From Cellulophaga baltica (GTDB taxonomy: Bacteria; Bacteroidota; Bacteroidia; Flavobacteriales; Flavobacteriaceae), in assembly GCF_018861125.1 (NCBI RefSeq), contig NZ_JAHKQN010000029.1, forward strand, positions 1-57,454: a stretch of 57,454 bases of DNA, in the 5' to 3' direction. The translations under genes and the position numbers were made by a program. Shown here one piece after another: positions 32,207 through 47,140 of the stretch (the stretch's first letter is position 1; the number at the start of each line of letters is the position of its first letter). The notes below the pieces were generated by a model, which saw only the letters and a program-made list of their open reading frames with translations, had not been told where the DNA came from and ran no database searches.

Positions 32207-33094
32207 ATGTCAGAAAAAAATAACGCTAAAGGTTCATTTGAAGAAATTTTGATTGATGATGGTTTCTTTGTTTTAAAAATTCAGAACGATGATGCTCATA
32301 TGCAGAAGGTTACGCGTGAAATTGATAGTTCGTACATTCAATTTCATTTCTGCTCAAAAGGTAGTGCTAAGTTTATTTTTAATGATGGCCGTTATGCACT
32401 TGAAGTTCCTGAAGAAGGTTCACTACTATTATATAATACACAGTTAGACTTACCTTTAAATTTGGAACTTAATCCTAATTCGTGGTTAGTTTCTGTTGTT
32501 ATGACCATTCGAAAGTTTCATTCTTTGTTTTCTAAAGAAGCGAGTTATATCCCTTTTTTAAGTAAAGATAATACAGATAAAAAATATTATAGTCAAGAAG
32601 CTTTTAATCCTGCAATAGCTGTAATTTTAAGTCAGATGATGAATTACAACTTGCATCCTTCAATAAAAGAACTATATATAAAAGGCAAGGTCTACGAATT
32701 AATTGCTCTTTATTTTAATAAGAATGAAGATGCTGATATTGAACAATGTCCTTTTTTAGTTGATGAAGATAATGTTCGTAGAATTAGAAACGCAAAAGAA
32801 ATTATTATTTCAAGAATGGCTGAACCGCCAACATTAACCGAGCTTTCTGAGGAAATAGGATTGTCATTAAAAAAGCTAAAGGAAGGTTTTAAACAAATTT
32901 ATGGTGATTCCGTTTTTAGTTTTTTGTTTGATTATAAAATGGATTATGCACGTAAAATGCTAGAGAGTGGTCAACATAATGTCAATGAAGTAGGGCTGAA
33001 GGTTGGTTATAGTACATCAAGTCATTTTATAGCAGCTTTTAAAAAGAAATACGGTACTACACCTAAAAAGTACTTAATGTCATTAGCTGGTTAA
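32207..33094 (+). CDS. AraC-family transcriptional regulator
   Basis: 295 residues. The C-terminal AraC/HTH_18 domain (about 190-292) has two helix-turn-helix units: PPTLTELSEEIGLSLKKLKEGFK and VNEVGLKVGYSTSSHFIAAFKKKYGTTPKKY. The N-terminal part (1-180) has a cupin-like beta region of no known ligand. It is transcribed divergently from hemA across 203 bp, so it may control the hem operon, heme or iron response, or itself; this is positional inference. No helix-turn-helix target repeat was evident. Confidence 0.93.
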   Translation: MSEKNNAKGSFEEILIDDGFFVLKIQNDDAHMQKVTREIDSSYIQFHFCSKGSAKFIFNDGRYALEVPEEGSLLLYNTQLDLPLNLELNPNSWLVSVVMTIRKFHSLFSKEASYIPFLSKDNTDKKYYSQEAFNPAIAVILSQMMNYNLHPSIKELYIKGKVYELIALYFNKNEDADIEQCPFLVDEDNVRRIRNAKEIIISRMAEPPTLTELSEEIGLSLKKLKEGFKQIYGDSVFSFLFDYKMDYARKMLESGQHNVNEVGLKVGYSTSSHFIAAFKKKYGTTPKKYLMSLAG

Positions 33095-33133
33095 ATAACT
33101 AGTTTAATAAATATTTAAAAGGTTATTTTGTAA

Positions 33134-33158
33134 AAATATCGAAGAATTTACGATATTT
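33134..33158. promoter_or_regulatory. Inverted repeat upstream of the ThuA gene
   Basis: AAATATCG (33134-33141) and CGATATTT (33151-33158) with a 9-nt spacer, 28 bp before the ATG at 33186. It could be an operator. It is too AT-rich to be a good terminator of the AraC gene and no T run follows. Confidence 0.35.
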
Positions 33159-33185
33159 ATCAATTAATATTAGAATTAGTCATTT

Positions 33186-33974
33186 ATGAAATTATTAGTA
33201 AAGAATATATTAATACTTGCAATTAGTGTTTTGTTTTTTGCCTGTGGTGGTACTAAAATAGATCAACAAGTAGTTTTAAATCAGACACAACCTGTAAAAG
33301 ATTCTGTGTATACAATTCCTGAAAAACCACAAGTTTTAGTTTTTACAAAAACATCAGGTTTTAATCATGGATCAATTGAAACAGGAATTAAAACATTGAA
33401 GCAATTAGGAATTAGAAATGATTTTCAAATCGTTTCAACTGATGATGCTTCTGAATTTAACACAGAAAACTTAGCTAATTATCAATTGGTATTGTTTTTA
33501 AATACTACTGGTGATGTTTTAAATAGTGAACAACAAGGTGCTTTCGAAACTTATATTCAGAGTGGTGGAAGTTTTATGGGTATCCACTCAGCTACTGATA
33601 CGGAACAAGGTTGGCCTTGGTATGGTAAATTAGTTGGTGCATATTTTGTAAGTCACCCAAAAGAGCAACGTGCAACAATACAGGTTATTGATGGTAGTCA
33701 TATGTCAACATCACATTTAAGTGGTACTTGGTCTCATTTTGATGAGTGGTATGATTTTAAAGATATTAATCCAGATATTCATGTGTTATTAAAATTAGAT
33801 GAATCTACGTATACAGGTGGTAAAAATGGAGATGATCACCCAATAGCTTGGTATCATGAATATGACGGTGGAAGAGCTTTTTATACCGGCTTAGGTCATA
33901 CAGAAGCTTCTTATGATGATTTAGATTTTAGAAAGCATTTAATTGGTGCTATCAATTGGTGTTTAAAAAGATAA
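33186..33974 (+). CDS. ThuA-domain lipoprotein
   Basis: 262 residues. Lipoprotein signal MKLLVKNILILAISVLFFAC with Cys20 as lipid site, then a ThuA/trehalose-utilisation-like domain (about 45-258) of the class I glutamine amidotransferase fold: VLVFTKTSGFNHGSIETG, GSFMGIHSATD, DHPIAWYHEYDGGRAFYTGLGH. ThuA proteins take part in sugar degradation, for example 3-keto-sugar processing; the target here is unknown. An intrinsic terminator follows. It is probably a single-gene unit. Confidence 0.93.
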   Translation: MKLLVKNILILAISVLFFACGGTKIDQQVVLNQTQPVKDSVYTIPEKPQVLVFTKTSGFNHGSIETGIKTLKQLGIRNDFQIVSTDDASEFNTENLANYQLVLFLNTTGDVLNSEQQGAFETYIQSGGSFMGIHSATDTEQGWPWYGKLVGAYFVSHPKEQRATIQVIDGSHMSTSHLSGTWSHFDEWYDFKDINPDIHVLLKLDESTYTGGKNGDDHPIAWYHEYDGGRAFYTGLGHTEASYDDLDFRKHLIGAINWCLKR

Positions 33975-34044: not shown

Positions 34045-34890
34045 TTAATTGTTTACTCTGACAACCATTATTCCGGTATTGTTTTTTATGCCTTTTAAAT
34101 AATCTGCTAAAGGTTTTTTTGTAACTTTTACACTCCCTGATGTTGAAGCATGTAATAAATGTATGCGTCCATCTTCTTCGCGTGTTGCAATACCAGTATG
34201 GGTAATGTCTAATCCTTTAATTGAAGTAGTTAGAGCAATAATATCTCCAGATTTTATTAGGTGCTCATTTGCTTTAATCTCATTTTTAGGTAAAATACAT
34301 ATCTCTTTATCATTTAAATAATTTTCTGATGCCTGAATCTGTTTCAAGTTAGTATCGTTATCTTTTAAAAAAGGATAAAGATTTCGGTGAGCACTCATGA
34401 AATTAATTTCCTTAGTGCTAATATGTCCTCCTAAATCAGAAGTAATATCAGTTACTAAACCTTTTTTTTGATTGTTTGCAATCCATTCTGAAAAATAATG
34501 CAAACGTGATGGGTAACCATTTAAAATGCCATCTTTATATCTAATTTTTTCAAGAACGTCAGTAAAGTCATCAAAAGTTGGTGTGTCTTTTTTAGTAAGT
34601 AAGCTAAAGGCAAGAACATTTTCAATATAGGTTGTACAATCTAACCCCTGTAAATTAATTACTAGAGATTCTGTATTACCAATTTCTAATGTTTTGGCTA
34701 TATACGGAGTGTCTAAAAACGTTTTTCCAACCGCAACCATGGTATTGTTTATATTATCTTTAATTAAAGACTCCAGTTGTGTAATTTTTGATTTAACAGC
34801 TTGTTTGTCCTGCACAGAACAGAATAATTGTTGTGCAAAACTTATGGTGAAGTTTAAAAATAAAAATAGTGTTGTAATTGTTTTAAACAT
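34045..34890 (-). CDS. DUF1460 papain-like amidase, exported
   Basis: 281 residues from the ATG at 34890, which gives a proper signal peptide (MFKTITTLFLFLNFTISFAQ) and a 5-bp gap after the ABC ATPase gene; the longer frame from 34965 would overlap that gene by 70 bp. The DUF1460 core shows the catalytic Cys in LDCTTYIENVLAF and His in LDITHTGIATREEDG. Related proteins are N-acetylmuramoyl-L-alanine amidases or other NlpC/P60-like cell-wall hydrolases. As the last gene of the ABC/OmpA cluster it supports a cell-wall link. Confidence 0.9.
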   Translation of the reverse strand: MFKTITTLFLFLNFTISFAQQLFCSVQDKQAVKSKITQLESLIKDNINNTMVAVGKTFLDTPYIAKTLEIGNTESLVINLQGLDCTTYIENVLAFSLLTKKDTPTFDDFTDVLEKIRYKDGILNGYPSRLHYFSEWIANNQKKGLVTDITSDLGGHISTKEINFMSAHRNLYPFLKDNDTNLKQIQASENYLNDKEICILPKNEIKANEHLIKSGDIIALTTSIKGLDITHTGIATREEDGRIHLLHASTSGSVKVTKKPLADYLKGIKNNTGIMVVRVNN

Positions 34891-34895
34891 ATTCT

Positions 34896-35723
34896 TTATG
34901 ATTGTAACATCACTTCTTTTATTTGCTTCACAATATCTAAATGTTCTAGTCCAAACTCTTTCCAAGCAATTCCTAAAGCTTTCATATCAATATGTTTGAC
35001 GATACTTCCATAAGGCATTTTTTTGCCATCAATTTCAGGGTAGCCAATTACGTAAATACTATCTGCTAATTCTACTGCTAATTCGATATCATGAGTAGAG
35101 TAAATGATTGTATTAAATTCATGACTTTCGGTAATTAATTTGAATGCATTTTTTACATCTTGAATGTTACCAACATCTAAGCCAGAGAAAGGTTCGTCTA
35201 AAACCATATAATGACCAGAACAAAATATTTGTTCTATTATTGCCGTTCTTTGACGCTGTCCGCCAGAGAGCTCGCAAGGGTATTGATCTTTAGCTTTTTC
35301 TAAGCCCCAATCTTTTAAATAGGTTAATATTTGTTTGTCTTTTTCCTCTTTAGACATTTCTTTATTACGTAATGCAAATTGAAGTGCTTCATAAACAGTT
35401 TTATTTCTAAAAAGCGTATATTTTTGGTCTACAAAACCAATATCACCTTCATGAACCTCTTTAGCGTCATCTATTGAATCCGTAGTGGTATCTGCAATTA
35501 AAACTTTTCCTGTAGTAGGTTTTACTAAGCCTGTAAGTGCTCTAAAAAAAGTAGATTTTCCTGTTCCTGATCTTCCTACTACAGCTATGACTTGACCTGT
35601 GACAGAACCATCTCTTACCGTATCTTTTTCGACAATATTTATGTCTTTTATTATTGTTTTATCACCATAAGCAACGCTTAAGTTTTCAACATAAAGTAAT
35701 GTATTTTGACTTGTATATTGCAT
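34896..35723 (-). CDS. ABC transporter ATP-binding protein of the NitT/TauT type
   Basis: 275 residues. Walker A VGRSGTGKST, Q-loop FVDQKYTLF, signature LSGGQRQRT, Walker B YMVLDEPFSGLD and the switch His STHD. The type is the NitT/TauT (nitrate/sulfonate/taurine) importer class. It begins 5 bp after the stop of the permease gene. Together with the permease and the solute-binding/OmpA protein it forms one importer-like unit; the substrate is unknown. Confidence 0.93.
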   Translation of the reverse strand: MQYTSQNTLLYVENLSVAYGDKTIIKDINIVEKDTVRDGSVTGQVIAVVGRSGTGKSTFFRALTGLVKPTTGKVLIADTTTDSIDDAKEVHEGDIGFVDQKYTLFRNKTVYEALQFALRNKEMSKEEKDKQILTYLKDWGLEKAKDQYPCELSGGQRQRTAIIEQIFCSGHYMVLDEPFSGLDVGNIQDVKNAFKLITESHEFNTIIYSTHDIELAVELADSIYVIGYPEIDGKKMPYGSIVKHIDMKALGIAWKEFGLEHLDIVKQIKEVMLQS

Positions 35724-35728
35724 CTAAC

Positions 35729-36499
35729 TTATATTTTTGAGTATCTAAAAAAACCTTTTCTTAAGTAGTCTAGTACAAAATCAATTAAAAGACCAACTAC
35801 TAAAATCACTATTTGTAAAGCGATAATTCGCCCGTGATTCATAAACTTATCTGAATTTTTAATCAGAAAACCTAAACCACCTGCTGCAACTAAAATAGAC
35901 TCAACGGTTACAAGCATCATCCAAACAATTGCTAAATTTTGACGTATAACATCAATAACATAATCTATTCTGCCTTTTACTACAACTTCCCATAAAACTT
36001 CCCATCTGTTACAGCCCAATGATCTTGCATGATCAAACTCTTCTTGAGGAATAGAGTTTACCATACTTAATAAAGAGGTTGTCAAATAGGTACTCATAAA
36101 AACTACTAAAACCCATATTTGCATGGTGCGAGCATCACTAATTAATATAGCTAAGTAAAATGTAATTCCCGTTAATGGTAAATACCTCAATTTACTTAGT
36201 GCTTTTGCTACAGGTTGCACTAATGGTATAGTAGATAAGTAGCTAAATATTAATGAAATAATTATAGCAATTATTATGGCGGAAAAGCACAATAGTAATG
36301 AGCTTCCTATATGTACTACAAGACCTTCATTATACAGTTCAGCTAAGCCTTGAAATACTTGTTGTGGAGATGGAAATAAATGCCTCTCTCCCATGCTTGA
36401 TAAATACCAAGTTAATACTACAACAAACACCCAGCCAAGAGAAATAAACAATTTGGTGTTCTTATTTATTTTTTCGAAAGGAGTTAATATATTTTTCAT
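35729..36499 (-). CDS. ABC transporter permease of the NitT/TauT type
   Basis: 256 residues with about six transmembrane helices. The EAA loop reads EEFDHARSLGCNRWEVLWEVVV, which contacts the ATPase. It lies 5 bp upstream of the ATPase gene. On the minus strand it starts 117 bp after the stop of the solute-binding/OmpA gene, with the hairpin 36521-36558 in between. Confidence 0.93.
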   Translation of the reverse strand: MKNILTPFEKINKNTKLFISLGWVFVVVLTWYLSSMGERHLFPSPQQVFQGLAELYNEGLVVHIGSSLLLCFSAIIIAIIISLIFSYLSTIPLVQPVAKALSKLRYLPLTGITFYLAILISDARTMQIWVLVVFMSTYLTTSLLSMVNSIPQEEFDHARSLGCNRWEVLWEVVVKGRIDYVIDVIRQNLAIVWMMLVTVESILVAAGGLGFLIKNSDKFMNHGRIIALQIVILVVGLLIDFVLDYLRKGFFRYSKI

Positions 36500-36520
36500 T
36501 TTTTTTAATTAGAAATTAAA

Positions 36521-36558
36521 AACCGCCCTAAATCAGGATTCCCTATTTTAGGACGGTT
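36521..36558 (-). terminator. Hairpin between the solute-binding/OmpA gene and the permease gene
   Basis: Minus-strand stem AACCGYCCTAAA with its complement TTTAGGGCGGTT, loop of 14 nt, then TTT. One pair is G-U on the minus strand but a mismatch (C-A) on the plus strand, so it acts in the direction of the operon. It can be a partial terminator or an mRNA 3' stabiliser that gives more binding protein than permease. Confidence 0.7.
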
Positions 36559-36616
36559 AGTATATATTTCACTAGTTATTCTAATTTCACCTTAAGATGA
36601 AATTAAATGATAAACC

Positions 36617-38431
36617 TTATTTTAAAAGTTCAATAACAACTCTTCTGTTTTTAGCTCTACTTGCATTTGAAGTATTCGGTACAACAGGCTCATCTTCACC
36701 TTTCCCTATTACTGTTTGGAAACGTGATTGTGGAATGCCTCTACCTCTTAAGAAAGTAACAACAGCTTGTGCACGTCTTTGAGATAAATCATAATTAGAT
36801 TCTGATGAACCAGTATCATCTGTATGACCTTCTAGTTTTAATTTAGAATCTTCAGCTTGTATTAATAAGTTATAAATAGTTTCTAAAGTGTCTTCAGAAG
36901 AACTAGAAATATTTGCACTACCAGTGTCAAAATTAATATTCCATTCACCAGATGCCATTACCTCTTTAGCTTCTTTAGTATAATCTGCTTTATATGCAGT
37001 ACCAGATTCAATGTCATTAATATTTTTAATGAAGTACAAGTTTACCGCCTCATCATAAGGTACAATACGTTTAACAGACTCGTTAAAACCGAATGGGTTT
37101 AATTCTTTTAAGTAACTAGAAACTTGGTTATAAACAGCTTTATATCTATTTGTACCATCAGTAATACCGTAATACTGCATAACATCAGAATAGTTAAAAA
37201 CTCTAGAACCACCCATATTATAATCGATTCCATTTTTGCTACCTTTCTGACCTTTAAACATGTCATACCAGTATTCTGGAGACTCTAAATCATAAGTTTC
37301 AGCAACAGCTTCAGAAGCTCTTACTTGCCACTCATCATATTGTTTCATTTGGTTTGATGCAGTTAATGCAGACTTTAAAATGTTACTCACTATTTGAGGG
37401 TGCTCAACAGACCACTCTTTAACAGCAATAATAGTTGTTGCCATTTGGTTGTTGAACTCTTTTGTTGATGCAATATCAGTAAAACCACTTAAAGCATCAA
37501 AAACCATTTTATCACCAGGTGTCCATGTAGCACAACCGTCAATTTTTTTATTGATAGTTTTTCCAGTAAGTTTTCCGTTTTTAACTTCTTTTAAAGGAAC
37601 TGTCCATCCTGATTTTTGAGATTTTATTAATTCTTCTGCAGATTTAATGTAATCATCATCTTGAGAAGGATAAAAATTTACCGCTTCAGGGTCGTAGGTA
37701 TTTGAATCTGGATTTACTTTTAAACCATTAGCAAAACAATAATTTAGCGCTGTTACCCAGTCACCATCACCTAAAACAGTAGAAATTAAAGCGCCTTTCA
37801 TGCTCTTCGGGTCTACTTTCCAGCTTGGAGGCCCTATTAATTTATCTTCACCATAACTAATACCTACAGCACCAACTACTTGTACGTGATATTTGTCTTT
37901 ACCAAATTTATCATCTAAGGCTTGTTGCATAGTACTAATGTAAAAAGGAGCACCATCACCCATCATGATTATTGCAAAAGCACTTTTATCGGCATCTGGG
38001 TATTCTTCACCACGATCAAACTCTTCAACAAATTTCATTTGCATGTTACGTAATTCAGAAAGCCAATCTTGACGAATAATTTCAAGATTAACACCGTTTT
38101 GTTCCATTAACGAACCTTTCGTAGTTTTTGGTCCACCATTAGAAACAATAATACCTGATTGAGCATTCCAAGCATAAGCGGCAATTCTTACTAAAGGTTT
38201 GTCGCTAACAGCATTTGATTTACTAGTTGATGGTAATTCCATTTTCGCAGATGTAATTACATTATTTACATCTTGTTTATCTACGTTGATACCATCTAAA
38301 ACTTTAGAATCGCCTACGCGCAAACCTGGAGCAAAATAGTATACAGCAGTTAAAATTCCGCCTAACAAAACAATGACGATTAATAATTCTGATAATGTGG
38401 TGAGTTTTTTTGTTCGTAAGATCTTACCCAT
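36617..38431 (-). CDS. Membrane-anchored solute-binding protein fused to a C-terminal OmpA domain
   Basis: 604 residues. An N-terminal uncleaved helix (about 15-34, LSELLIVIVLLGGILTAVYY) lacks a lipobox Cys and so probably anchors the chain in the inner membrane. Residues about 75-480 look like a NitT/TauT or phosphate-type solute-binding protein (VRIAAYAWNAQSGIIVSNGG, VTALNYCFANGL). The C-terminal 495-604 is an OmpA domain: NINFDTGSANI, EGHTDDTGSSESNYDLSQRRAQAVV, KNRRVVIELLK, with the diaminopimelate-binding Asp and Arg present. The binding protein is thus tied to the membrane at one end and to peptidoglycan at the other, an unusual build for an importer. The substrate cannot be read. Confidence 0.88.
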   Translation of the reverse strand: MGKILRTKKLTTLSELLIVIVLLGGILTAVYYFAPGLRVGDSKVLDGINVDKQDVNNVITSAKMELPSTSKSNAVSDKPLVRIAAYAWNAQSGIIVSNGGPKTTKGSLMEQNGVNLEIIRQDWLSELRNMQMKFVEEFDRGEEYPDADKSAFAIIMMGDGAPFYISTMQQALDDKFGKDKYHVQVVGAVGISYGEDKLIGPPSWKVDPKSMKGALISTVLGDGDWVTALNYCFANGLKVNPDSNTYDPEAVNFYPSQDDDYIKSAEELIKSQKSGWTVPLKEVKNGKLTGKTINKKIDGCATWTPGDKMVFDALSGFTDIASTKEFNNQMATTIIAVKEWSVEHPQIVSNILKSALTASNQMKQYDEWQVRASEAVAETYDLESPEYWYDMFKGQKGSKNGIDYNMGGSRVFNYSDVMQYYGITDGTNRYKAVYNQVSSYLKELNPFGFNESVKRIVPYDEAVNLYFIKNINDIESGTAYKADYTKEAKEVMASGEWNINFDTGSANISSSSEDTLETIYNLLIQAEDSKLKLEGHTDDTGSSESNYDLSQRRAQAVVTFLRGRGIPQSRFQTVIGKGEDEPVVPNTSNASRAKNRRVVIELLK

Positions 38432-38467
38432 TTTGTGTTGTATTTATAGTTTTTAAGTTATTTATAT

Positions 38468-39589
38468 TTAATCAAACATTTGCCCAAATCCACCGCTTTC
38501 TTGCTTGTCTTCATGCGTTAGTTTGTAGTTAGGGTTGCTGTATTGTTCTGAATCTGGAATAAAATCTTTTCCAGTTTTAATATTGTCGGCAAGTGAATCT
38601 AACTGAGAGTATAATTCATCGCTATCAACATCATATTTTGAAGTCAGCATATCAATGTCAGTCAAGTTTTCTTGAGTTCTAGCAATATCCATAGCAATAG
38701 TTTCTGTAACTACATCTAAAGCATATTCAAGTTCCCAGTCTTTTGTAAATAACATTGCAGATTTTGCGCTGTCTGTTGCTTCTCTTGCTGATCTTGCAAA
38801 TTCAAATTCTTTTTCAAGCATTTCAATAGTTACTTCAAAATCAGAAATTTTGATGTCAATTGCAGTACCTGCTAAAGTTAATTTGCGATCTAGTTTTCCC
38901 ATAACGTGGGCTCTACTACCGTATTTTTTTATGAAACTTTTGCTTTGTTCTAATTGATGAGTTACACGTTGTGATTCTGATAATTTTTTAGCAAGCGCAC
39001 TATGTAAATCTACATATTCATCTGTATCTCTACCGCCAGAACCTTTTTCTTTTACAATGCGTTCCATTTCAGTTTTAAGTTTCTGAGCCTGTTTTTGAAG
39101 CATTAAAACTCTATTTTGATATTCTTTGGCTTCTTTTTCAGCTTTATATGACTCAGCTTCCATATTAGACTTTAATGCCTTTATTTTAGCTTTAGATTCT
39201 TTAAAAACCTTACGATTTCTAAGCATCTTCATTTTTTGCTCTTGTAATTCACCAAATGGATCGTGTTTTATTAATGATTTATGAAGAAACCTTGTTAACC
39301 TTCTTAAACCTTTAAAAATTACAGGGAGCATTAAAATAAAAAACACAATAAATATAGCCACACCTGCCAGTGCAATTATTTGTCCTAAAGCAGTAAATAA
39401 TGGTGGTAATATATATACCCAGGCGCCATAACCAACAGCTGCAAATAATGCTAGTTTTATGGCTGTATTTAATCCTTTTTCACCATTTCTCCAATTATTA
39501 GGGTTTAATGATATTTCCCCTTTTTCATCATCAAAATGCTTTAAAATAGGCAAGTCTAATACATGACTTTTTGATTCTTCAATATTCAT
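38468..39589 (-). CDS. Two-helix membrane protein with long coiled coils, function unknown
   Basis: 373 residues. Two transmembrane helices (about 43-63 and 68-93) are followed by long charged helices (about 115-225 and 235-300) rich in K, E, Q and A with heptad-like spacing (KESKAKIKALKSNMEAESYKAEKEAKEYQNR, positions about 130-160). The last 60 residues are acidic and lack structure. It resembles PspA-like or TelA-like envelope-stress proteins in shape, but I see no family motif. It lies 36 bp upstream of the solute-binding/OmpA gene and is in the same operon. Confidence 0.85.
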   Translation of the reverse strand: MNIEESKSHVLDLPILKHFDDEKGEISLNPNNWRNGEKGLNTAIKLALFAAVGYGAWVYILPPLFTALGQIIALAGVAIFIVFFILMLPVIFKGLRRLTRFLHKSLIKHDPFGELQEQKMKMLRNRKVFKESKAKIKALKSNMEAESYKAEKEAKEYQNRVLMLQKQAQKLKTEMERIVKEKGSGGRDTDEYVDLHSALAKKLSESQRVTHQLEQSKSFIKKYGSRAHVMGKLDRKLTLAGTAIDIKISDFEVTIEMLEKEFEFARSAREATDSAKSAMLFTKDWELEYALDVVTETIAMDIARTQENLTDIDMLTSKYDVDSDELYSQLDSLADNIKTGKDFIPDSEQYSNPNYKLTHEDKQESGGFGQMFD

Positions 39590-39607
39590 TTGTTGTTAGG
39601 TTGTTTG

Positions 39608-40300
39608 TTATAGGTTGTTGTTAACACCTGTAACTACGGTGTTTATTGTTTCTAGAATTTTGTTTTTAGCAATATCATTAGCAACTATTTTTTGTTCAAT
39701 CTCAGATACCTCTGTAACTAAATCATTATCAATAGAATTTAAGATGTTTTTCTTATTACTAATTTGTGTTTGTAATTCAAGAATTTGCTTTTCTAAAGTA
39801 GAAATTTCTGTGGTTAATTCTTTTTTCTTTTGTTGTTGACCAAGTTGTATCTGATCTCTTTTATCGTTTCCTTTGGTTTGGTATTTTTCATGTACATTAT
39901 TTATTTCTTTAATGTAAAATGAAGCACCTTCTAATAAAGATTGCTTACTGACTTTAGAATCTACACTTTGTGCCATGGTCATGGCCATTTTATAAACGTT
40001 TGCATCATTAGAGCCTACTGCTTTTATTGCTTTAAAAAACTCGTAAAAATCATAACCAGGCAGGTTTAAAGAATCAAAACCACTTTCATACATTTCAATA
40101 ATGGTGTCTAAAACAGAATCATTAATTGCTGATGGATTTACATTAATTGTTTTACTAGGTTCGCTTTCAGGGAATTTTGTACTAGAAGTTATTGTTGTTT
40201 TTACTTCTTCTTCAATCTTAGTTTCAGTATTCGTTTTAGAGGTTTTAACTCCTTCTTCATTTACAAATAAAGATTTCCAATTAAACTTTTCTTTTGCCAT
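39608..40300 (-). CDS. Cytoplasmic coiled-coil protein, function unknown
   Basis: 230 residues. The first 60 are low complexity (Lys, Thr, Ser, Glu); a compact helical block follows (about 58-140; DSVLDTIIEMYESGFDSLNL, PGYDFYEFFKAIKAVGSNDA); a long coiled coil ends the chain (about 150-222). No signal peptide or membrane helix. It lies 18 bp upstream of the two-helix membrane protein gene, so the two probably act together as a membrane-bound scaffold with the ABC/OmpA unit. I do not recognise its family. Confidence 0.82.
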   Translation of the reverse strand: MAKEKFNWKSLFVNEEGVKTSKTNTETKIEEEVKTTITSSTKFPESEPSKTINVNPSAINDSVLDTIIEMYESGFDSLNLPGYDFYEFFKAIKAVGSNDANVYKMAMTMAQSVDSKVSKQSLLEGASFYIKEINNVHEKYQTKGNDKRDQIQLGQQQKKKELTTEISTLEKQILELQTQISNKKNILNSIDNDLVTEVSEIEQKIVANDIAKNKILETINTVVTGVNNNL

Positions 40301-40419
40301 TTATAAGCTGTTTTTGGTTGGTGCTTCGTTATATTAAACGTATATGTTATTGAAGCTTTAAATTTAAATATTTTTAAAGGACTTCTCATCCCTGTTTTCA
40401 GTTATTTGAAATAATTATT

Positions 40420-40434
40420 TATACTATTAGTATA
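40420..40434. promoter_or_regulatory. Short perfect palindrome upstream of the coiled-coil/ABC sub-operon
   Basis: TATACTA, T, TAGTATA, 119 bp before the start of the gene at 40300 (minus strand) and 28 bp after the stop of the gene at 40462. No T run follows; an operator is possible. AT-rich, so chance is not excluded. Confidence 0.3.
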
Positions 40435-40461
40435 TAAAATTTAGTTTTTGTTACACTTATT

Positions 40462-40962
40462 TTATTTTGAAAATTTTATCCATGCAAACCTTAATACCAC
40501 CATTATAACTGCAAAAACTAATAATAGTTGTGTGAAACTTCCTAAAATTAATACGCCAAAAAATGATTTTTGTAAGATGAAAATAAGTAAAAAAGCAATA
40601 CTTATCATAATAAATAAACTCGAAAGTTTACTAAACCCAGGTAGTTTAGACATTTTGATCTTTCTATTAAGTAGAAAAAGAATCACTAGAATAGCAATAA
40701 TTGGTAAAAAATAAGAGATCATACTAACCTCAAGCATGCTTTTATGCAAAAACAAAATATTATATAATGTTAAGAATAAAGCTAAAATTCCGGGTATAGC
40801 AACACCATAAACTATGATTGACATTATATATTTAACACTCGTAATGTTATTTCTATTTACTATTGAAATACAAATGAGAGTCGCAATCAAAATTATTGCA
40901 TAATAATATAATACGTATGTATCACGGTTGTCAAACCAGTTAATTAAATCTTGTATGGTCAT
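40462..40962 (-). CDS. Small polytopic membrane protein, function unknown
   Basis: 166 residues with about five transmembrane helices (around 14-36, 45-70, 80-98, 108-130 and 132-160) and a short charged loop (LNRKIKMSKLPGFSKL). No known family was recognised. It starts 23 bp after the AAA+ gene stop and is followed by a 161-bp gap, so it probably ends the first half of the cluster. Confidence 0.8.
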   Translation of the reverse strand: MTIQDLINWFDNRDTYVLYYYAIILIATLICISIVNRNNITSVKYIMSIIVYGVAIPGILALFLTLYNILFLHKSMLEVSMISYFLPIIAILVILFLLNRKIKMSKLPGFSKLSSLFIMISIAFLLIFILQKSFFGVLILGSFTQLLLVFAVIMVVLRFAWIKFSK

Positions 40963-40985
40963 TTTCGGTTATTGGTCTTAAAGTT

Positions 40986-42467
40986 TTAATCTTCTTCAAA
41001 AACACTAATCTCTTTTACAGTTTTTAGTATTTCCGGAATATCCTCTTCAGTAATTGTAATTAATAATTCTTCGGTAATAGTATCTAGAGTAACAATTCTA
41101 TTGGCTTGCCTTTCTATTATTTTTTCAAATAAATTTCGCATTGTACGAGCATTACCAAAACCTTTATGTCTCTTTTCATAAACTCTTTCAATTATTTCTA
41201 ATAATTTATCTTTTGCATCTTCAGTTAATTTAAAATCTGATTTAGTAGCAATAAGTTCAAAAATCTTTAATAATGAATTTGGTTCATAATGATTAAAATT
41301 TAAATACCTGTTAAAACGTGATTGTAAACCAGGATTTGATTCAATAAATATTTCCATTTCATCAGGGTATCCTGCAACTACAACTACCAAATTATTACGT
41401 AAATCTTCCATACGTTTTAGTATAATTTCAATAGCCTCTTTTCCAAAATCATTTAACCCTCCTCCAGATAAGGCGTAAGCTTCATCAACAAATAAAACGC
41501 CATCAGTTGCTGCGGTAATAATTTCGTCAGTTTTTATTGCAGTCTGTCCAACATAACCAGCTATTAAACCAGATCTATCGGTTTCTACCAAATGGCCTCT
41601 TTTTAAATAACCTAAGTGTTTAAAAATTCTGCCTAACATTCGTGCAACCGTTGTTTTTCCTGTTCCCGGAGGTCCCATAAAAACAAAGTGTAAAGAATTT
41701 TGATTGGTCTTTAAACCTTTTTCTTCTCTTAATTTTTGAACTTTTAAAAAGTTAATAAGGTCATTTACATTTTTCTTAATTTCTTCTAAACCAATTAATT
41801 CATTGAGTTCTTCAAGCACTTTTTCTAAAGTGTCGTCTTCAGGAACATCGTTGTATTTAGAATTTTTAATACTAATTTTCGGGTTGCTTACTTTTTTAGA
41901 AATCTCTTTTAGTGTTTCCTCTTCTTTTTTGGCAATTGTACCATCAGATTGAGCCATTATTAATGCTGTTCTATTTAAAAAAGAAGCAACACTTTCATAA
42001 GCAGAACTATTATTTTTTTTAAGTATTAAAGTAGATAAATATTCAGATTTTAAACTTTCAATTGGTTGAAAGAAAGATGTTTCTTGTATTAGGGCAATAT
42101 TCTTATCAAACTGATTTGATAACGGTAGTTTTGTAAGTTTTTGTATATCAAAACTTTTAGCTAAATCTTTTCCTTGTAATTTTTCATATAAATAAATTAA
42201 TGCAAACTTTATTTTTTGAGGAATTCTTGAAGTTGCATTATAATGTAATGAAAATGTGTTGTAAATTTTCACAATATCTCTTAAAACTAAATGCTCAAAT
42301 TTATAGGAAGTATTTTTAAAGTTAGGATCTAAAATTGAAGCTATAGCTTGTTTGTATGTATTATCAGAATTTATATTTAAACAAATAGCCCAAATTTTAG
42401 TTCCCTCTGTACGGAGTAAATCTATAAATTCAGGAGTTATTAGGTTTTGGTCGGTATCTTTATGCAT
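40986..42467 (-). CDS. CbxX/CfxQ-type AAA+ ATPase with TerB-like N-terminal region
   Basis: 493 residues. The C-terminal AAA+ module has Walker A GPPGTGKT (265-272), a pore-loop region SGLIAGYVGQTAIKT (299-313), Walker B VLFVDEA (324-330), sensor AGYPDEM and the arginine-finger segment NPGLQSRFNRYLNF (Arg384). This is the CbxX/CfxQ/SpoVK class. The N-terminal region (about 155-195; RTALIMAQSDGTIAKKEEETLKEI) resembles the metal-binding helical core of TerB-type tellurite-resistance domains, suggesting a stress-signalling role. It lies between the TraB-type and the small membrane protein genes; gaps are 33 and 23 bp. Confidence 0.92.
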   Translation of the reverse strand: MHKDTDQNLITPEFIDLLRTEGTKIWAICLNINSDNTYKQAIASILDPNFKNTSYKFEHLVLRDIVKIYNTFSLHYNATSRIPQKIKFALIYLYEKLQGKDLAKSFDIQKLTKLPLSNQFDKNIALIQETSFFQPIESLKSEYLSTLILKKNNSSAYESVASFLNRTALIMAQSDGTIAKKEEETLKEISKKVSNPKISIKNSKYNDVPEDDTLEKVLEELNELIGLEEIKKNVNDLINFLKVQKLREEKGLKTNQNSLHFVFMGPPGTGKTTVARMLGRIFKHLGYLKRGHLVETDRSGLIAGYVGQTAIKTDEIITAATDGVLFVDEAYALSGGGLNDFGKEAIEIILKRMEDLRNNLVVVVAGYPDEMEIFIESNPGLQSRFNRYLNFNHYEPNSLLKIFELIATKSDFKLTEDAKDKLLEIIERVYEKRHKGFGNARTMRNLFEKIIERQANRIVTLDTITEELLITITEEDIPEILKTVKEISVFEED

Positions 42468-42500
42468 TAAAAAGAGTTAATTATTTAAAGGTAATGAAAA

Positions 42501-45500
42501 TTAATAATCATAATAACCAAAGTTATTTATTTGGTTTGTGGTATAAACTTCAGCTCGTTCTCTGTCTTTTAGTATAAATTCTTCAATAACTAAATCTAGC
42601 GTTTCATCATCTGTTTCGGTATCTTCAATTCTGCGTCCGTTATTTTTATAAAATGGTTTAGATTTTAATTTAGAATCATCTTTATAAATAGCAATAAACA
42701 TTTTAAAATTCTTGTCGTAATCGCTACCATTAAGATATTTAAAGGCATAGCCTGTATAGTTTTCATTTCTGAAAACGATATTCTTCTTTGCTATAAACTT
42801 AATTGAATCTGTAGATTTATTATAACTTTTTTGTTCAAAAAGCTGTGCTTCAGCTAGCATTTGTTGTGATTTGAATTCATTAGGAAAATAAGCTAGCTTC
42901 CCCTCTTTTTTTAATTTTGAAAATAATAAATTCCTGCTATCCAGCTCAGTTGCTAATTCATTAATTTCACTTTTGTCTACTGTGTTGCCAGAAGAAAGCA
43001 AAAGTGCTACATTTGTAGTCTGTATAGTGGCATCCTGTAATAGTGATAGTTTATCAAAAAATAAATGAATTTCTTTTTCTTTTATAAAAGGGTGTAGTAA
43101 TTGTATGTAGCTTTCTAAAACATTTTTATTTTTAATACTTAATAAATTTGTTTGATAATTGCTTACGTTATTTTTTGATGTATTACCTAGCTCTCTTTTT
43201 AATTGAATTTTGGCATCATTTAACATTTGTTTTCTATACTTCTTATAAATTTTTGGTTTTATAAGTCCGTTAGTTTTTAATTTAGCTAAGAGTGAAAAAA
43301 TGGGTGACTTGTATTCTTCAATTGCACTATAATCTAATATTTCGGGATATAATTTTTTTGCCAACGGCAGGCTATCCATATAAGGTTTAAAGATCTGGTA
43401 TATTTCATAATTGCTAGAAACTAATGGCAGATCTTTTGACATTAAACTTAAAAGTTGTTCTGCAGAAACATCAGTTTCTTTTTTGGTTATGGCTTGTAAT
43501 ATTTTGGTTTGTGAAGAGGAATTGTTATACGAATTTTCATAAAAATTAGTATAGAACTGCATAGATTCAGAATCATCTAATTGTGCTAAACGTTGTATTA
43601 AATAACTCTGTATTTTCTTTTGATCTTCAGTAAAATCAAATTCAGTAATATAATATTTTAGTGAATCAATATGTGATTTATTAAATGCAATAAAAGGATA
43701 ACCACTTAACGCAATGCTATCATTTGCTTTTAATGCACTAAAAAAAGTAGTGGTTTTATCAAGAAGTAAATTTTCACCAATTACAGTATCTAATGGTTTA
43801 AAATTATCAAAAAATTTAGTTATGAATTTACTAGGTTTTTCGGCTGTATCAATAACAGCTTTAAGTTCGTAAAGTAAGCCTTGTTTAATAACATTTTTTA
43901 TAAGTATACCTCTCGTACTTGCAGTGTCAGTTAAAGTAAGTTCTAATACATCAAATCCGTCATCATTACTTTTGGTTATTACATTTTTAATATTAAATTT
44001 TTTATTGCTATATAGCTTTTTTCTAAGCTTCCAGATAGAATCAATATTAGGGAACATTAGAAAATCGTGAGACTTGTTTAATTGTACGTGAACTGCTTCA
44101 TTATTTTTATTTTGGTAGATTGTTTTTTTACTGTAAGCATTATAAGGTTTAATATCTTTTTTCTGATAACTATTACTGTTTGCAACAAATTTAGGAGGCT
44201 TTACAGAAGTCACAGTTGAAAAAAACAGAGCGGTATCTTTAACTTGTGTATACGCTTCAGTATATTTTGGGTTTTTAATTTTAAAAGAACTAAAGTACTT
44301 GATGGCTTCATTACTGTTTGAAGAAATCATTCCTAATAAATAATAATTTTCACCTTTTAATTTTGTGTATAAATGAAGTTTTTTATTGGTTAAAGTATCT
44401 ATTATAGCAGAGGATAATAAACTATTATTTTTAAATTGATTATAAACAGGTTTAACCTCTAATTTTTTGTAAAATATTTTTTGAATACGTTTTAGCTCAA
44501 AAGTGTCTTCTTCAATAAATTTATAATCATGTAAAGTTGATTTTTTTAAAAACCGATAAGAATTATTTGTGGAGTCAAATGCTTGTATTAATCTATTCCC
44601 ATTTCTTTTTGAGTTAGTAAAACTATAAGTTTTGGGCATATCAACTTCAAAATCGTCATAGTTTGAACTTACTTTGTGTAGTGTAGAATTTAAATTTTTA
44701 AGCTTAATGCTTTTAAAAATAGTGTCTGCATATTGAGATACAAAATCATCATGCCCACCCATTTTAAAAACGATAATTTCTAATGGAGTAACGAATATTT
44801 GATAGCGTTGGTATTCACCATTTTTAAGAAGATTTTTTATGTCAATTCCTTGGTATCCATTTTTTATGATGAATTTTTTTTCAATTATTTTACCAGGTAT
44901 ATTTTCAAACAAGAGCTTGTCAATAGCATCAATTGTAAGTGTTTTTTCTTTGTCTAAATATGAAAATGTAGGGATTCTATTAGCGGTGAAAAAACTACCA
45001 TTCGCTAGATCAGGTGACACATAAAATGTATTAGAAAACTCAGCTATTGGATATAATTTATTAGGCAGTATAATAGAAAAAAATTCGTCGTCTACCGTTT
45101 CTAAATTATACTTGTTTTCTCTTATTTTTTCTTCAAAATTTTCTTTTAATTTATTGCCCTTTCTTGTGGTCTTTGAAGTTAATGCTTTAACAGTATACCC
45201 TTTTTTCCTTAATAAAGAAATCACTCCATTTTTACCTGGTAAATGAGCAGCTCCAATACCTGCAAATACTTTTGCTTTTTGTATTACGGAATCAAGCTTA
45301 GTTGCCATGTTCTTATTACGTATATATAGCATATTCTTCAAATAATAATCAGTATACATTCCTTGGTCTAAGGAATCTAATAAATTAATATTTCGCTCTC
45401 TATACGCATCTTCTAAAAGCTGTAACGGTTCTTGAAGTTGCATTTTTTTCTGCAACCAATCTGCAGGCTTATCTTTTACACTGTTAAAACTCGCACGGCC

Positions 45501-46028
45501 AACTAGCGTTGATGATTCTTCATTGTCTTCAAGTGCAACAATGGGTTTGTTAAATTTTTTCCCTGCTTGATAAATAAACATATCAAGATAAGTGTCTTCT
45601 TCAAAATTTTGAGAAGTTTGATCTGTTCTGTATAAAATATTATTGATCATTTTATCTTCAAGACCCAAAAAAGCTGCAATCTCTTCTTTTCTCGGCGGAT
45701 CCATTGTAAATGACCTATCGTAAAACGCTTTTGTTATAAATGTTTCCCCAAAACCATAAGTTATAGCATCATTGTTTTCTAACCAAGTATTTGGGTCAGA
45801 CTCTAAAGCGATAACTTCACTTTTGTCTAATGCTTCAAAAAAAACATCATCTAACCTAAATGCGATTTTTTTACTAACATGCATGGTTCCATAGAGATAA
45901 GAACTTTTTTCTAATCCGTTTCCTGAAATCTCCCACAACAAACTATTTTTTTCTTGCGCATTAATTGCAAAAAAAGTGCTTAAAAAAACAAGAATAAAAG
46001 TTAATTTAATGGACAGTTTTATTTTCAT
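42501..46028 (-). CDS. Exported TraB/GumN-like protein with a giant unknown C-terminal region
   Basis: 1,175 residues from the ATG at 46028, which gives a clean signal peptide (MKIKLSIKLTFILVFLSTFF, then AINAQE); a start at 46046 would add six residues. Residues about 30-290 are TraB/GumN-like: WEISGNG, SYLYGTMHVSKK with the paired Gly-x-x-His motif, VIALESD, and GIGAAHLPGKNGVISLLRKKG. Such domains may be metal-dependent hydrolases of the Tiki/GumN type. The remaining 880 residues match nothing I know; they include many short Phe/Tyr strands and helical segments. The gene is part of the MscS-AAA+-ABC/OmpA cluster, with 35 bp and 33 bp to its neighbours. Confidence 0.88.
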   Translation of the reverse strand: MKIKLSIKLTFILVFLSTFFAINAQEKNSLLWEISGNGLEKSSYLYGTMHVSKKIAFRLDDVFFEALDKSEVIALESDPNTWLENNDAITYGFGETFITKAFYDRSFTMDPPRKEEIAAFLGLEDKMINNILYRTDQTSQNFEEDTYLDMFIYQAGKKFNKPIVALEDNEESSTLVGRASFNSVKDKPADWLQKKMQLQEPLQLLEDAYRERNINLLDSLDQGMYTDYYLKNMLYIRNKNMATKLDSVIQKAKVFAGIGAAHLPGKNGVISLLRKKGYTVKALTSKTTRKGNKLKENFEEKIRENKYNLETVDDEFFSIILPNKLYPIAEFSNTFYVSPDLANGSFFTANRIPTFSYLDKEKTLTIDAIDKLLFENIPGKIIEKKFIIKNGYQGIDIKNLLKNGEYQRYQIFVTPLEIIVFKMGGHDDFVSQYADTIFKSIKLKNLNSTLHKVSSNYDDFEVDMPKTYSFTNSKRNGNRLIQAFDSTNNSYRFLKKSTLHDYKFIEEDTFELKRIQKIFYKKLEVKPVYNQFKNNSLLSSAIIDTLTNKKLHLYTKLKGENYYLLGMISSNSNEAIKYFSSFKIKNPKYTEAYTQVKDTALFFSTVTSVKPPKFVANSNSYQKKDIKPYNAYSKKTIYQNKNNEAVHVQLNKSHDFLMFPNIDSIWKLRKKLYSNKKFNIKNVITKSNDDGFDVLELTLTDTASTRGILIKNVIKQGLLYELKAVIDTAEKPSKFITKFFDNFKPLDTVIGENLLLDKTTTFFSALKANDSIALSGYPFIAFNKSHIDSLKYYITEFDFTEDQKKIQSYLIQRLAQLDDSESMQFYTNFYENSYNNSSSQTKILQAITKKETDVSAEQLLSLMSKDLPLVSSNYEIYQIFKPYMDSLPLAKKLYPEILDYSAIEEYKSPIFSLLAKLKTNGLIKPKIYKKYRKQMLNDAKIQLKRELGNTSKNNVSNYQTNLLSIKNKNVLESYIQLLHPFIKEKEIHLFFDKLSLLQDATIQTTNVALLLSSGNTVDKSEINELATELDSRNLLFSKLKKEGKLAYFPNEFKSQQMLAEAQLFEQKSYNKSTDSIKFIAKKNIVFRNENYTGYAFKYLNGSDYDKNFKMFIAIYKDDSKLKSKPFYKNNGRRIEDTETDDETLDLVIEEFILKDRERAEVYTTNQINNFGYYDY

Positions 46029-46081
46029 GAAATTTAAACAAAGCATTGTATTTATACAGTATAACGCACTATTGTTCTAAT

Positions 46082-47140
46082 CTATTTTGTTTGTTCATTG
46101 TTTTTTAAAACCACTCTTGTACGTGCAATACTTTCAGGATAATTTTCTTGTAAAAAGGTAATTAATTTTTCGCGTACCAAAACACGTAAATCCCATGCGG
46201 TTGGTGAATCTTTTGCACTCATTAAAGCTCTAATTTCTACACTTTGGGCTAATGAATCTGTAACTTGTAAAACATTCACCTTACCATCCCAAAGGTCTGT
46301 ACTTTCTAAAACACGAGTAAGTTCTTTTCTAAGTTCGTCAAATGGTACATTATAATCAGTATGTAAAAAAACAGTCCCTAATATATCAGAAGAGGTTTTG
46401 GTCCAGTTTTGAAAAGGTTGTTCTATAAAATAGGTGGTTGGTAATATTAACCTTCTTTTGTCCCAAATATTTACAACAACATATGTTAATGTAATCTCTT
46501 CAATGCGGCCCCATTCGCCTTCAACAATTACAACATCGTCCATTTTAATGGGTTGTGCAATTGCAATTTGAATTCCTGCTAAAATACTACCAATCATTTT
46601 TTGGGCAGAAAAACCAATAACAATACCGGCAACACCAGCAGAAGCAAAAATACTTACTCCAATTTCCTTTATACTATCAAAACTCATTAAGGCAATACCA
46701 ATTGCTAAAATTATAATGATAAAAATAATGATCCGTTCTAAAATATTAAATTGTGTATATACTTGTCTTGCTTTTAAATTATTTGAAGCATTTACATCGT
46801 ATTTAGATATTACCTTTCTTTTAATAACTTTTAAAGTTACAATTATCAACCAAGTGATTGATATAATAATCAGTAAAGTACTTATTTTGCCTAATACAAA
46901 AGAGAGCTCAGTAATATCTAGGTATTCATGAATAATTTTTAGACCACATAAAATACCTAAAAAGAGAATAAAAATAGGGGTGCTAACTTTTTTTATTTCA
47001 CTTTTATTAATCAGATATTTAGGGTCTTTACCGAATCTACGTAAAATACGAACGGTTATATATTGAAGTAATACTAACGTTAGAACAACAACTAGTATAA
47101 TAATTAATGTGTTTGGTTCATTAAATAGATTTTTAAACAT
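46082..47140 (-). CDS. MscS-type mechanosensitive ion channel
   Basis: 352 residues. Three to five helices in the N-terminal half (about 10-28, 50-70, 85-105, 130-150) lead into the pore helix TM3 and the beta domain: GVAGIVIGFSAQKMIGSILAGI, then QPIKMDDVVIVEGEWGRIEEITLTYVVV and DKRRLILPTTYFIEQPFQNWTK. This is the MscS pore and beta-domain signature. It releases solutes under hypo-osmotic stress. It is the first gene of the minus-strand cluster and is divergent from hemH. Confidence 0.95.
   Translation of the reverse strand: MFKNLFNEPNTLIIILVVVLTLVLLQYITVRILRRFGKDPKYLINKSEIKKVSTPIFILFLGILCGLKIIHEYLDITELSFVLGKISTLLIIISITWLIIVTLKVIKRKVISKYDVNASNNLKARQVYTQFNILERIIIFIIIILAIGIALMSFDSIKEIGVSIFASAGVAGIVIGFSAQKMIGSILAGIQIAIAQPIKMDDVVIVEGEWGRIEEITLTYVVVNIWDKRRLILPTTYFIEQPFQNWTKTSSDILGTVFLHTDYNVPFDELRKELTRVLESTDLWDGKVNVLQVTDSLAQSVEIRALMSAKDSPTAWDLRVLVREKLITFLQENYPESIARTRVVLKNNEQTK

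Follow-up and report, generated by a model that had tools for sequence, protein, structure and literature searches.

A seven-gene module of Cellulophaga baltica that may encode a wall-tethered ABC importer with its own membrane scaffold and AAA+ ATPase

In ATP-binding cassette (ABC) importers of the TauABC, SsuABC, NrtABC and CmpABCD types the binding protein is free or lipid-anchored. Wall-anchored membrane proteins such as MotB, TolR and ZorB combine an inner-membrane helix with an OmpA-type wall-binding domain. The seven genes considered here lie on the minus strand (34896-42467) of a stretch of 57,454 nucleotides from Cellulophaga baltica (NZ_JAHKQN010000029.1, hereafter the window). They share binding-protein fold, permease family and ATPase with the importers named, but their binding protein carries an OmpA domain for wall binding besides a membrane helix, and it differs from MotB, TolR and ZorB in having an ABC-importer ligand-binding domain in between. 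A matching parts list has been published: the available part of Ravi et al. 2024 (PMC11237479) describes operons (e.g. OGG56892.1) with a transmembrane (TM)-bearing PspA/Snf7 homologue, an AAA+ ATPase, an ABC ATPase, a permease and a PBPB-OmpA protein, and likewise proposes a link between membrane remodelling and transport. An earlier note on this DNA had called the system undescribed, which in view of that paper does not hold for the type. The likeness was judged by the parts described there and not gene by gene in sequence. The window contains the ABC ATPase, permease and binding-protein/OmpA fusion in conserved order and an associated AAA+; for the TM-bearing PspA/Snf7 homologue it has a coiled-coil protein with two TM helices (CC2), whose orthologues in Hymenobacter match the PspA_IM30 family and whose window copy does not. 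The accessible part of PMC11237479 leaves the AAA+ family of these operons unnamed (in connection with PspA it mentions a protein that has two AAA+ domains), whereas the AAA+ of the module is of CbbX/SpoVK type with one AAA domain by Pfam. In the same part we found no mention of a CbbX/SpoVK-type AAA+, of the membrane protein called TM5 below, of the strict company of these two, of the CC2 tail or of the sporadic spread in Bacteroidota. Our literature searches returned no experimental study of the operon type, which among the results is described in PMC11237479 alone, and as far as they show, the module is a variant of an operon type that has been noticed before and not studied.

We propose that the seven genes encode an ABC importer complex that is tethered to the wall and has a membrane scaffold and a remodelling ATPase of its own, a reading to which we give about an even chance. 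The parts are, in the direction of transcription:

40986-42467, minus strand: AAA+ ATPase, 493 aa, assigned to the SpoVK/CbbX/EccA clade (Pfam AAA and AAA_lid_6; TIGR02881)
40462-40962, minus strand: TM5, 166 aa, five predicted membrane helices, no Pfam match
40301-40461, minus strand: intergenic gap, 161 bp, possible start of a second transcript (from its position; similar length in three relatives)
39608-40300, minus strand: CC1, coiled-coil protein, 230 aa, no membrane helix, directly upstream of CC2 (hidden Markov model (HMM) matches across loci)
38468-39589, minus strand: CC2, two N-terminal membrane helices, helical hairpin, tail GGFGQMFD, probably PspA/ESCRT-III-like (TM prediction, AlphaFold2 (AF2) model, Pfam matches of relatives)
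36617-38431, minus strand: SBP-OmpA, the binding-protein fusion, with membrane helix, TauA/NrtA/CmpA-type binding domain (about 76-475) and OmpA domain (Pfam and model)
35729-36499, minus strand: ABC permease, TauC/SsuC-like, EAA-type loop FDHARSLG (Pfam BPD_transp_1, NCBIfam)
34896-35723, minus strand: ABC ATPase, Walker A, LSGG, Walker B and H-loop all present (Pfam ABC_tran and motifs)

The full-length SBP-OmpA protein was of little use as a survey query, as it matched 193 of the 198 genomes of a phylum sample (the window's own genome included), nearly all through the OmpA domain; relatives extending beyond this domain were present in 3 of the 197 other genomes. The query was therefore switched to the binding domain, with which the genomes of 84,980 species were scanned and 162 relatives confirmed, and the best 80 of the 162 were analysed (loci carry L numbers, genomes G numbers). 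Sixty-nine loci with at least 7.5 kb on either side of the binding-protein gene form the full-flank set, 11 being shorter: 38 of a Flavobacterium group, which takes in a Pedobacter locus (L063) and a metagenome-assembled genome (MAG; L078), 3 of Cellulophaga type (L042-L044), 2 of Niastella/Longitalea and 26 of Hymenobacter. The 80 loci are titled Bacteroidota save L078 (G213), a MAG titled Limnohabitans that carries the flavobacterial version and whose title is probably wrong; in the phylum group around it, matches fall at contig positions identical to those of known Bacteroidota genomes.

The order CC1-CC2-SBP-permease-ATPase is the same in Flavobacterium, Pedobacter, Niastella and Hymenobacter. 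CC2 lies upstream of the binding-protein gene in 78 of the 80 loci (median gap 30 bp, widest 2.2 kb), and in the two loci without it (L060 and L080) the contig stops at the binding protein. Within the full-flank set CC2 is present in 69/69 and CC1 in 63/69 loci; over all 80 the CC1 HMM matches in 68. The full-flank Hymenobacter loci gave CC1 in 20, the permease in 24 and the ATPase in 25 of 26, these being thresholded matches on crude open reading frame (ORF) calls by which true genes may be missed. The AAA+ gene accompanies all 38 Flavobacterium-group and all 3 Cellulophaga-type full-flank loci, and TM5 among the 69 only the latter 3. A very divergent core with the order kept was also seen on a Chitinophagaceae MAG contig (L100; CC1 36 bits, CC2 52 bits).

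Recurrence of this kind could arise from chance or inherited synteny of unrelated neighbours, and the Flavobacterium loci, which have their wider flanks in common (ATP synthase genes etc.), are for this reason not independent counts. However, the block has quite different flanks in Pedobacter (L063, core and AAA+), Niastella/Longitalea, Hymenobacter, the Cellulophaga type and a variant B described below, and the AAA+ gene precedes the core in one group and follows it in another. Recurrence in differing flanks with the position of the AAA+ changed is characteristic of a functional set, and we regard synteny of unrelated genes as extremely improbable. TM5, CC1, CC2, SBP-OmpA, permease, ABC ATPase and AAA+ are a conserved module.

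The earlier note had drawn the system wider, as ten genes including three local neighbours that fall outside this module:

46082-47140, minus strand: MscS-type channel (Pfam MscS)
42501-46046, minus strand: TraB/GumN-domain protein, 1181 aa (Pfam)
34045-34890, minus strand: AmiA-like (PF07313) amidase, probable ATG start 34890, ORF listed as 34045-34965 (Pfam)

The ten minus-strand ORFs (34045-47140) do stand in the order given there, and Pfam agrees with the identities named (MscS, TraB/GumN, AAA with AAA_lid_6, OmpA, BPD_transp_1, ABC_tran and AmiA-like PF07313); for the TraB-like ORF the family was right and the length was not, as it has 1181 aa from the first ATG instead of 1,175. The TraB/GumN match takes up only residues 36-287 of this protein, the rest giving no further Pfam family at E 0.1, and CC1 and CC2 of the window give only weak Pfam matches below the cut-offs. 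From MscS to the amidase the gaps between successive genes are 35, 33, 23, 161, 18, 36, 117, 5 and 5 bp, the gap of 117 bp separating the binding-protein gene from that of the permease. On the opposite strand beside the module (32207-33974) are an AraC-type regulator and then a ThuA-family protein. The common strand and the small gaps at the three neighbours (35, 33 and 5 bp) would suit a ten-gene machine in which the MscS, TraB-like and amidase proteins are functional parts of a mechanosensing or wall-stress system, and TraB and amidase genes flank the module also in the Cellulophaga relatives L042 and L044. However, MscS was found in 1, TraB in 2 and the amidase in 2 of the 3 Cellulophaga-type loci and each in 0/66 of the remaining full-flank loci, and none of them in the Aquimarina-titled L043 or among the listed variant-B ORFs. 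As these three genes do not accompany the module, the ten-gene system was rejected, and we consider such a machine very unlikely. The survey around the SBP-OmpA fusion, which the earlier note had put forward as a check, bore out the company of the seven genes outside this genome, and that of the other three in Cellulophaga-type loci only.

A second version of the module was met in a family sample of 249 Flavobacteriaceae genomes (235 genera, the window's own genome, G000, included). The window-type binding domain was strong there in G000 only and weak in G382 and G429, and full-length AAA+ profile matches of at least 620 bits were obtained in G000, G363 and G382; G253 and G328 gave 233-295 bits, and these matches, like the many weak ones, were taken as other AAA+ proteins. 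Variant B, at loci L176 (G382) and L177 (G363), has all seven genes in an order that differs from that of the window, TM5-CC1-CC2-SBP/OmpA-permease-ATPase-AAA+. Local identity between window and L177 is 53% for AAA+, 38% for TM5, 34% for the ATPase, 26% for CC1 and for the permease, 25% for the binding protein (second half and OmpA domain) and 22% for CC2. A 2-oxoglutarate-Fe (2OG-Fe) dioxygenase gene (PF10014) directly follows the AAA+ gene in both variant-B loci (L176:8167-9075 and L177:10016-10924). A reduced version, CC1-SBP/OmpA-permease-ATPase, is present in G429 (L178, 3346-7365). The variant-B binding domain was confined to G363, G382 and G429, and TM5 to the three genomes that also have the full AAA+ (0/246 others), where matches in the genomes that supplied the queries are trivial (G000, G363 and G382 for TM5; G363, G382 and G429 for the binding domain). 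Over a phylum sample the variant-B binding domain gave 34/296 matches, all weak (best E 3.7e-16) and mostly in frames of ordinary binding-protein size. Seven of 17 core-bearing genomes chosen from the 80 loci have one strong AAA+ relative, which lies beside the core, and the remaining 10 gave weak partial matches only (best E 1.8e-6). Because of this single strong AAA+ beside the core and the co-occurrence of TM5, both proteins look dedicated to the module where they are present. Since a genome of the same genus (G408) gave no binding domain, full AAA+ or TM5, the spread of the module in Bacteroidota is sporadic.

From its sequence, the AAA+ protein appears to fall in the SpoVK/CbbX/EccA clade. 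It matches TIGR02881 (E 8e-88) and AAA_lid_6 (E 1.4e-20), and has Walker A at 265, Walker B at 324, AGY at 365 and GNARTMRN at 438. The members of this clade are, according to the available part of PMC10659427, dedicated chaperones with varied N-terminal domains, and its signatures are GY in sensor 1, a sensor-2 arginine and, four positions ahead of the first arginine finger, a conserved Asn. The AAA+ of the module has the first two, with G, Y and both Arg invariant in 12 aligned sequences, and in NPGLQSR at 378-384 the N is invariant while position +4 is Q in the window and R in most Flavobacterium copies. The protein thus shares with these chaperones the AAA domain, AAA_lid_6, GY, sensor-2 and a dedicated single-context partner, but its N-terminal region is another one and it stays below the NCBIfam cut-offs for SpoVK, CbbX and EccA (293.8/422.95, 239.8/459.25 and 239.5/466.65 bits). 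No Rubisco, MurG or type VII genes were noticed near the module. The TerB likeness seen by the earlier note was not borne out, as PF05099 gave no match in the window protein at E<=0.1 and 14.7 bits against a cut-off of 24.4 in a relative, and the link to TerB and tellurite was rejected for want of a significant match.

The importer itself agrees with the earlier description of an ABC importer set with a binding protein apparently held between inner membrane and wall, to which the coiled-coil partners and the AAA+ belong. The N-terminal hydrophobic helix (residues 16-34) and C-terminal OmpA domain (501-596, Pfam) of the binding protein are present as claimed; no Cys lies near the helix, which presumably stays uncleaved. 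The binding domain has the TauA/NrtA/CmpA fold, is well modelled and keeps many polar residues that are invariant in the alignment; a PDB sequence search with it gave one irrelevant match. The permease shows TauC/SsuC likeness by NCBIfam and matches Pfam PF00528, and the ABC ATPase matches PF00005 with its motifs intact. A defence system was considered and rejected, as the PADLOC matches were to ATPase, MotB/OmpA (ZorB) and AAA models, none of them judged system-specific. A BBP2 outer-membrane porin follows the AAA+ gene in F. profundi (L039:14422-15498; the cluster is present in 5 Flavobacterium loci) and another follows a regulator in Hymenobacter (L041:13942-15051); these porins are possibly an outer-membrane channel for the importer.

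Such data could also be explained by a plain importer of TauABC/NrtABC type with an oddly anchored binding protein, in which CC1, CC2, TM5 and AAA+ would be assembly or quality-control factors and no remodelling would take place. The complete ABC set with all its motifs and the well-modelled binding fold are in line with this, as are the weak PspA homology of CC2 in the window and the role of characterised SpoVK/CbbX/EccA members as dedicated chaperones (PMC10659427, available part). However, CC2 is missing from none of the 78 loci with a contig long enough to include its place, and the Hymenobacter orthologues match PspA_IM30. Ordinary importers of the TauABC/NrtABC class are, to our knowledge, not in need of such partners, and we consider the plain importer somewhat unlikely.

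CC2, a part of the scaffold that we favour, is likely, though not proven, to be a membrane-anchored PspA/ESCRT-III-like protein. Membrane helices are predicted at 43-61 and 74-92, and the AF2 model has helices at 113-188 and 190-279, followed by shorter ones, with a predicted local distance difference test (pLDDT) of 73-93 over residues 111-270. Pfam PspA_IM30 (PF04012) matches 12 of 27 members of the CC2 family. It matches all 6 Hymenobacter proteins tested, one of them (L097, 35.2 bits) above the cut-off of 33.9 and the other five at 25.4-32.1 bits, and none of the 4 tested from outside Hymenobacter; a genome search with PF04012 independently picked the CC2 of G072 (33.1 bits). Searched against PDB sequences, the CC2 family profile matches the ESCRT-III protein CHMP3 best (E 0.0023, over some 63 positions), later matches being assorted coiled coils. 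Flavobacterial and Hymenobacter CC2 are homologous (hhalign 95%; HMM medians of 13.9 bits, with reversed decoys at -2.3 and CC1 at about 4), so that a PspA origin of the latter would hold for the former as well. The long helical hairpin predicted for CC2 is shared with PspA/Vipp1 (IM30) and ESCRT-III, and the Pfam match is found in the Hymenobacter orthologues; CC2 differs from these proteins in its two membrane helices and, in the window copy, in the lack of a Pfam family match. A PF04012 match was present in 62/148 Bacteroidota genomes of the sample searched with it (own genome included), and G000 gave none at E 0.001. CC1 was tried as a second PspA/Snf7 protein and rejected, profile comparisons giving no support.

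In the proposed complex the binding protein would be parked over its permease with the OmpA domain gripping the wall, and would deliver a small ligand in such a way that transport or occupancy depends on wall contact. CC2 would be anchored by its two helices with the PspA/ESCRT-III-like hairpin in the cytoplasm, as the positive charges after the second helix suggest, and together with CC1 would form a scaffold surrounding the transporter beneath the membrane. The AAA+ would dock at the membrane through TM5 and remodel this scaffold, perhaps by holding the conserved tail of CC2 in the way that CbbX holds that of Rubisco; in Hymenobacter and Niastella, which are without this AAA+, the scaffold may be used alone or with another engine. 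The tail reads GFGxxF(D/N) in 46/46 flavobacterial-type copies and [YF]xx[LI][LF]D in the remaining 32. The last eight residues of 28 Hymenobacter CC2 are 82-100% conserved vs 21-86% before them, a comparison counted from the end without alignment, by which the linker looks more variable than it is. A more specific version, in which the CbbX/SpoVK-type AAA+ has a Vps4 role, grips the CC2 tail (GFGxxF) and dismantles or tensions the importer scaffold, so that ligand and wall contact would control membrane remodelling at that place, seems to us doubtful.

Several observations weigh against the proposal. The AAA+ was found beside the core in 0/2 Niastella/Longitalea and 0/26 Hymenobacter full-flank loci, TM5 was not found beside the cores of either group, and the two proteins are for this reason not indispensable; nor is CC2, as the reduced locus L178 lists none, CC2, TM5 and AAA+ all being missing among its listed ORFs. 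The AF2 model of CC2 is only fair as a whole (mean pLDDT 69.4, predicted template modelling score (pTM) 0.47). No PspA_IM30 match was obtained with the window CC2 up to E 1, and variant-B CC2 scored 12.3 bits or nothing with PF04012. Profile-profile comparison of CC2 with 23 canonical Bacteroidota PspA gave a probability of 9-11%, against 1-3% for coiled-coil controls, and an HMM built from these PspAs scored a median of 3.0 bits on a Hymenobacter/variant-B set of CC2 vs 1.5 on reversed decoys. In fold comparison Foldseek returned nothing for CC2 at E<=0.001, and the scores of BAR domains and of other coiled coils were similar. The flavobacterial tail is conserved no more than the stretch preceding it, and since lineages without this AAA+ keep the tail too, its partner may be something other than the AAA+.

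The module may have a part in wall stress or wall sensing. As a sensor, SBP-OmpA, permease and ATPase would signal to the scaffold of CC1, CC2 and AAA+, and in Hymenobacter also to a sigma54-type regulator and a kinase, how far wall and membrane lie apart, whether the wall is damaged or whether a ligand derived from it is present. The apparent tether from inner membrane to wall would suit this, and in 18 Hymenobacter loci a sigma54-type regulator lies downstream of the ABC ATPase on the same strand, and many of these loci have a histidine kinase further along. The regulator was recognised by Pfam as a sigma54-type response regulator in L041 (L041:12505-16833), and its relatives lie 0.5-1.8 kb from the ABC ATPase in 17 loci and 5.8 kb in one. 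The pspA gene is under sigma54 control, which is a parallel to this arrangement. Phage shock protein (PSP) systems are envelope-stress systems (PMC11237479, available part), which also counts for a sensor. However, no such regulator was noticed beside the module in the window or the Flavobacterium loci, where no systematic search was made, and the invariant polar residues of the binding domain and the intact ATPase motifs would suit transport. On balance we hold a sensor to be unlikely.

The gap of 161 bp (40301-40461) exists as the earlier note claimed, with similar length in three relatives (68% mean column identity). Its further suggestion, that the gap may divide two transcripts, is in line with the run starting at CC1 in Flavobacterium and Hymenobacter, which makes it a plausible transcript boundary; promoter scans gave no support. 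The motif TANNTTTG, which we take to be the Bacteroidota -7 promoter element, has no occurrence on the minus strand within the gap, and one sigma70-like site lies at its edge, the promoter and terminator scans giving overall no more matches than in shuffles.

According to the available part of PMC11237479 it is unknown by what means PspA homologues control their assembly where no AAA ATPase is associated with them, and the control of bacterial PspA/ESCRT-III-like proteins without Vps4 is an open issue. The module described here is compact, is present in culturable Bacteroidota, and couples a probable member of the PspA/ESCRT-III superfamily to one dedicated AAA+ and to an apparently wall-tied transporter. 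For the question of how membrane remodelling and import may be coupled, it offers a ligand and an engine that can be defined, and genes that are simple to delete.

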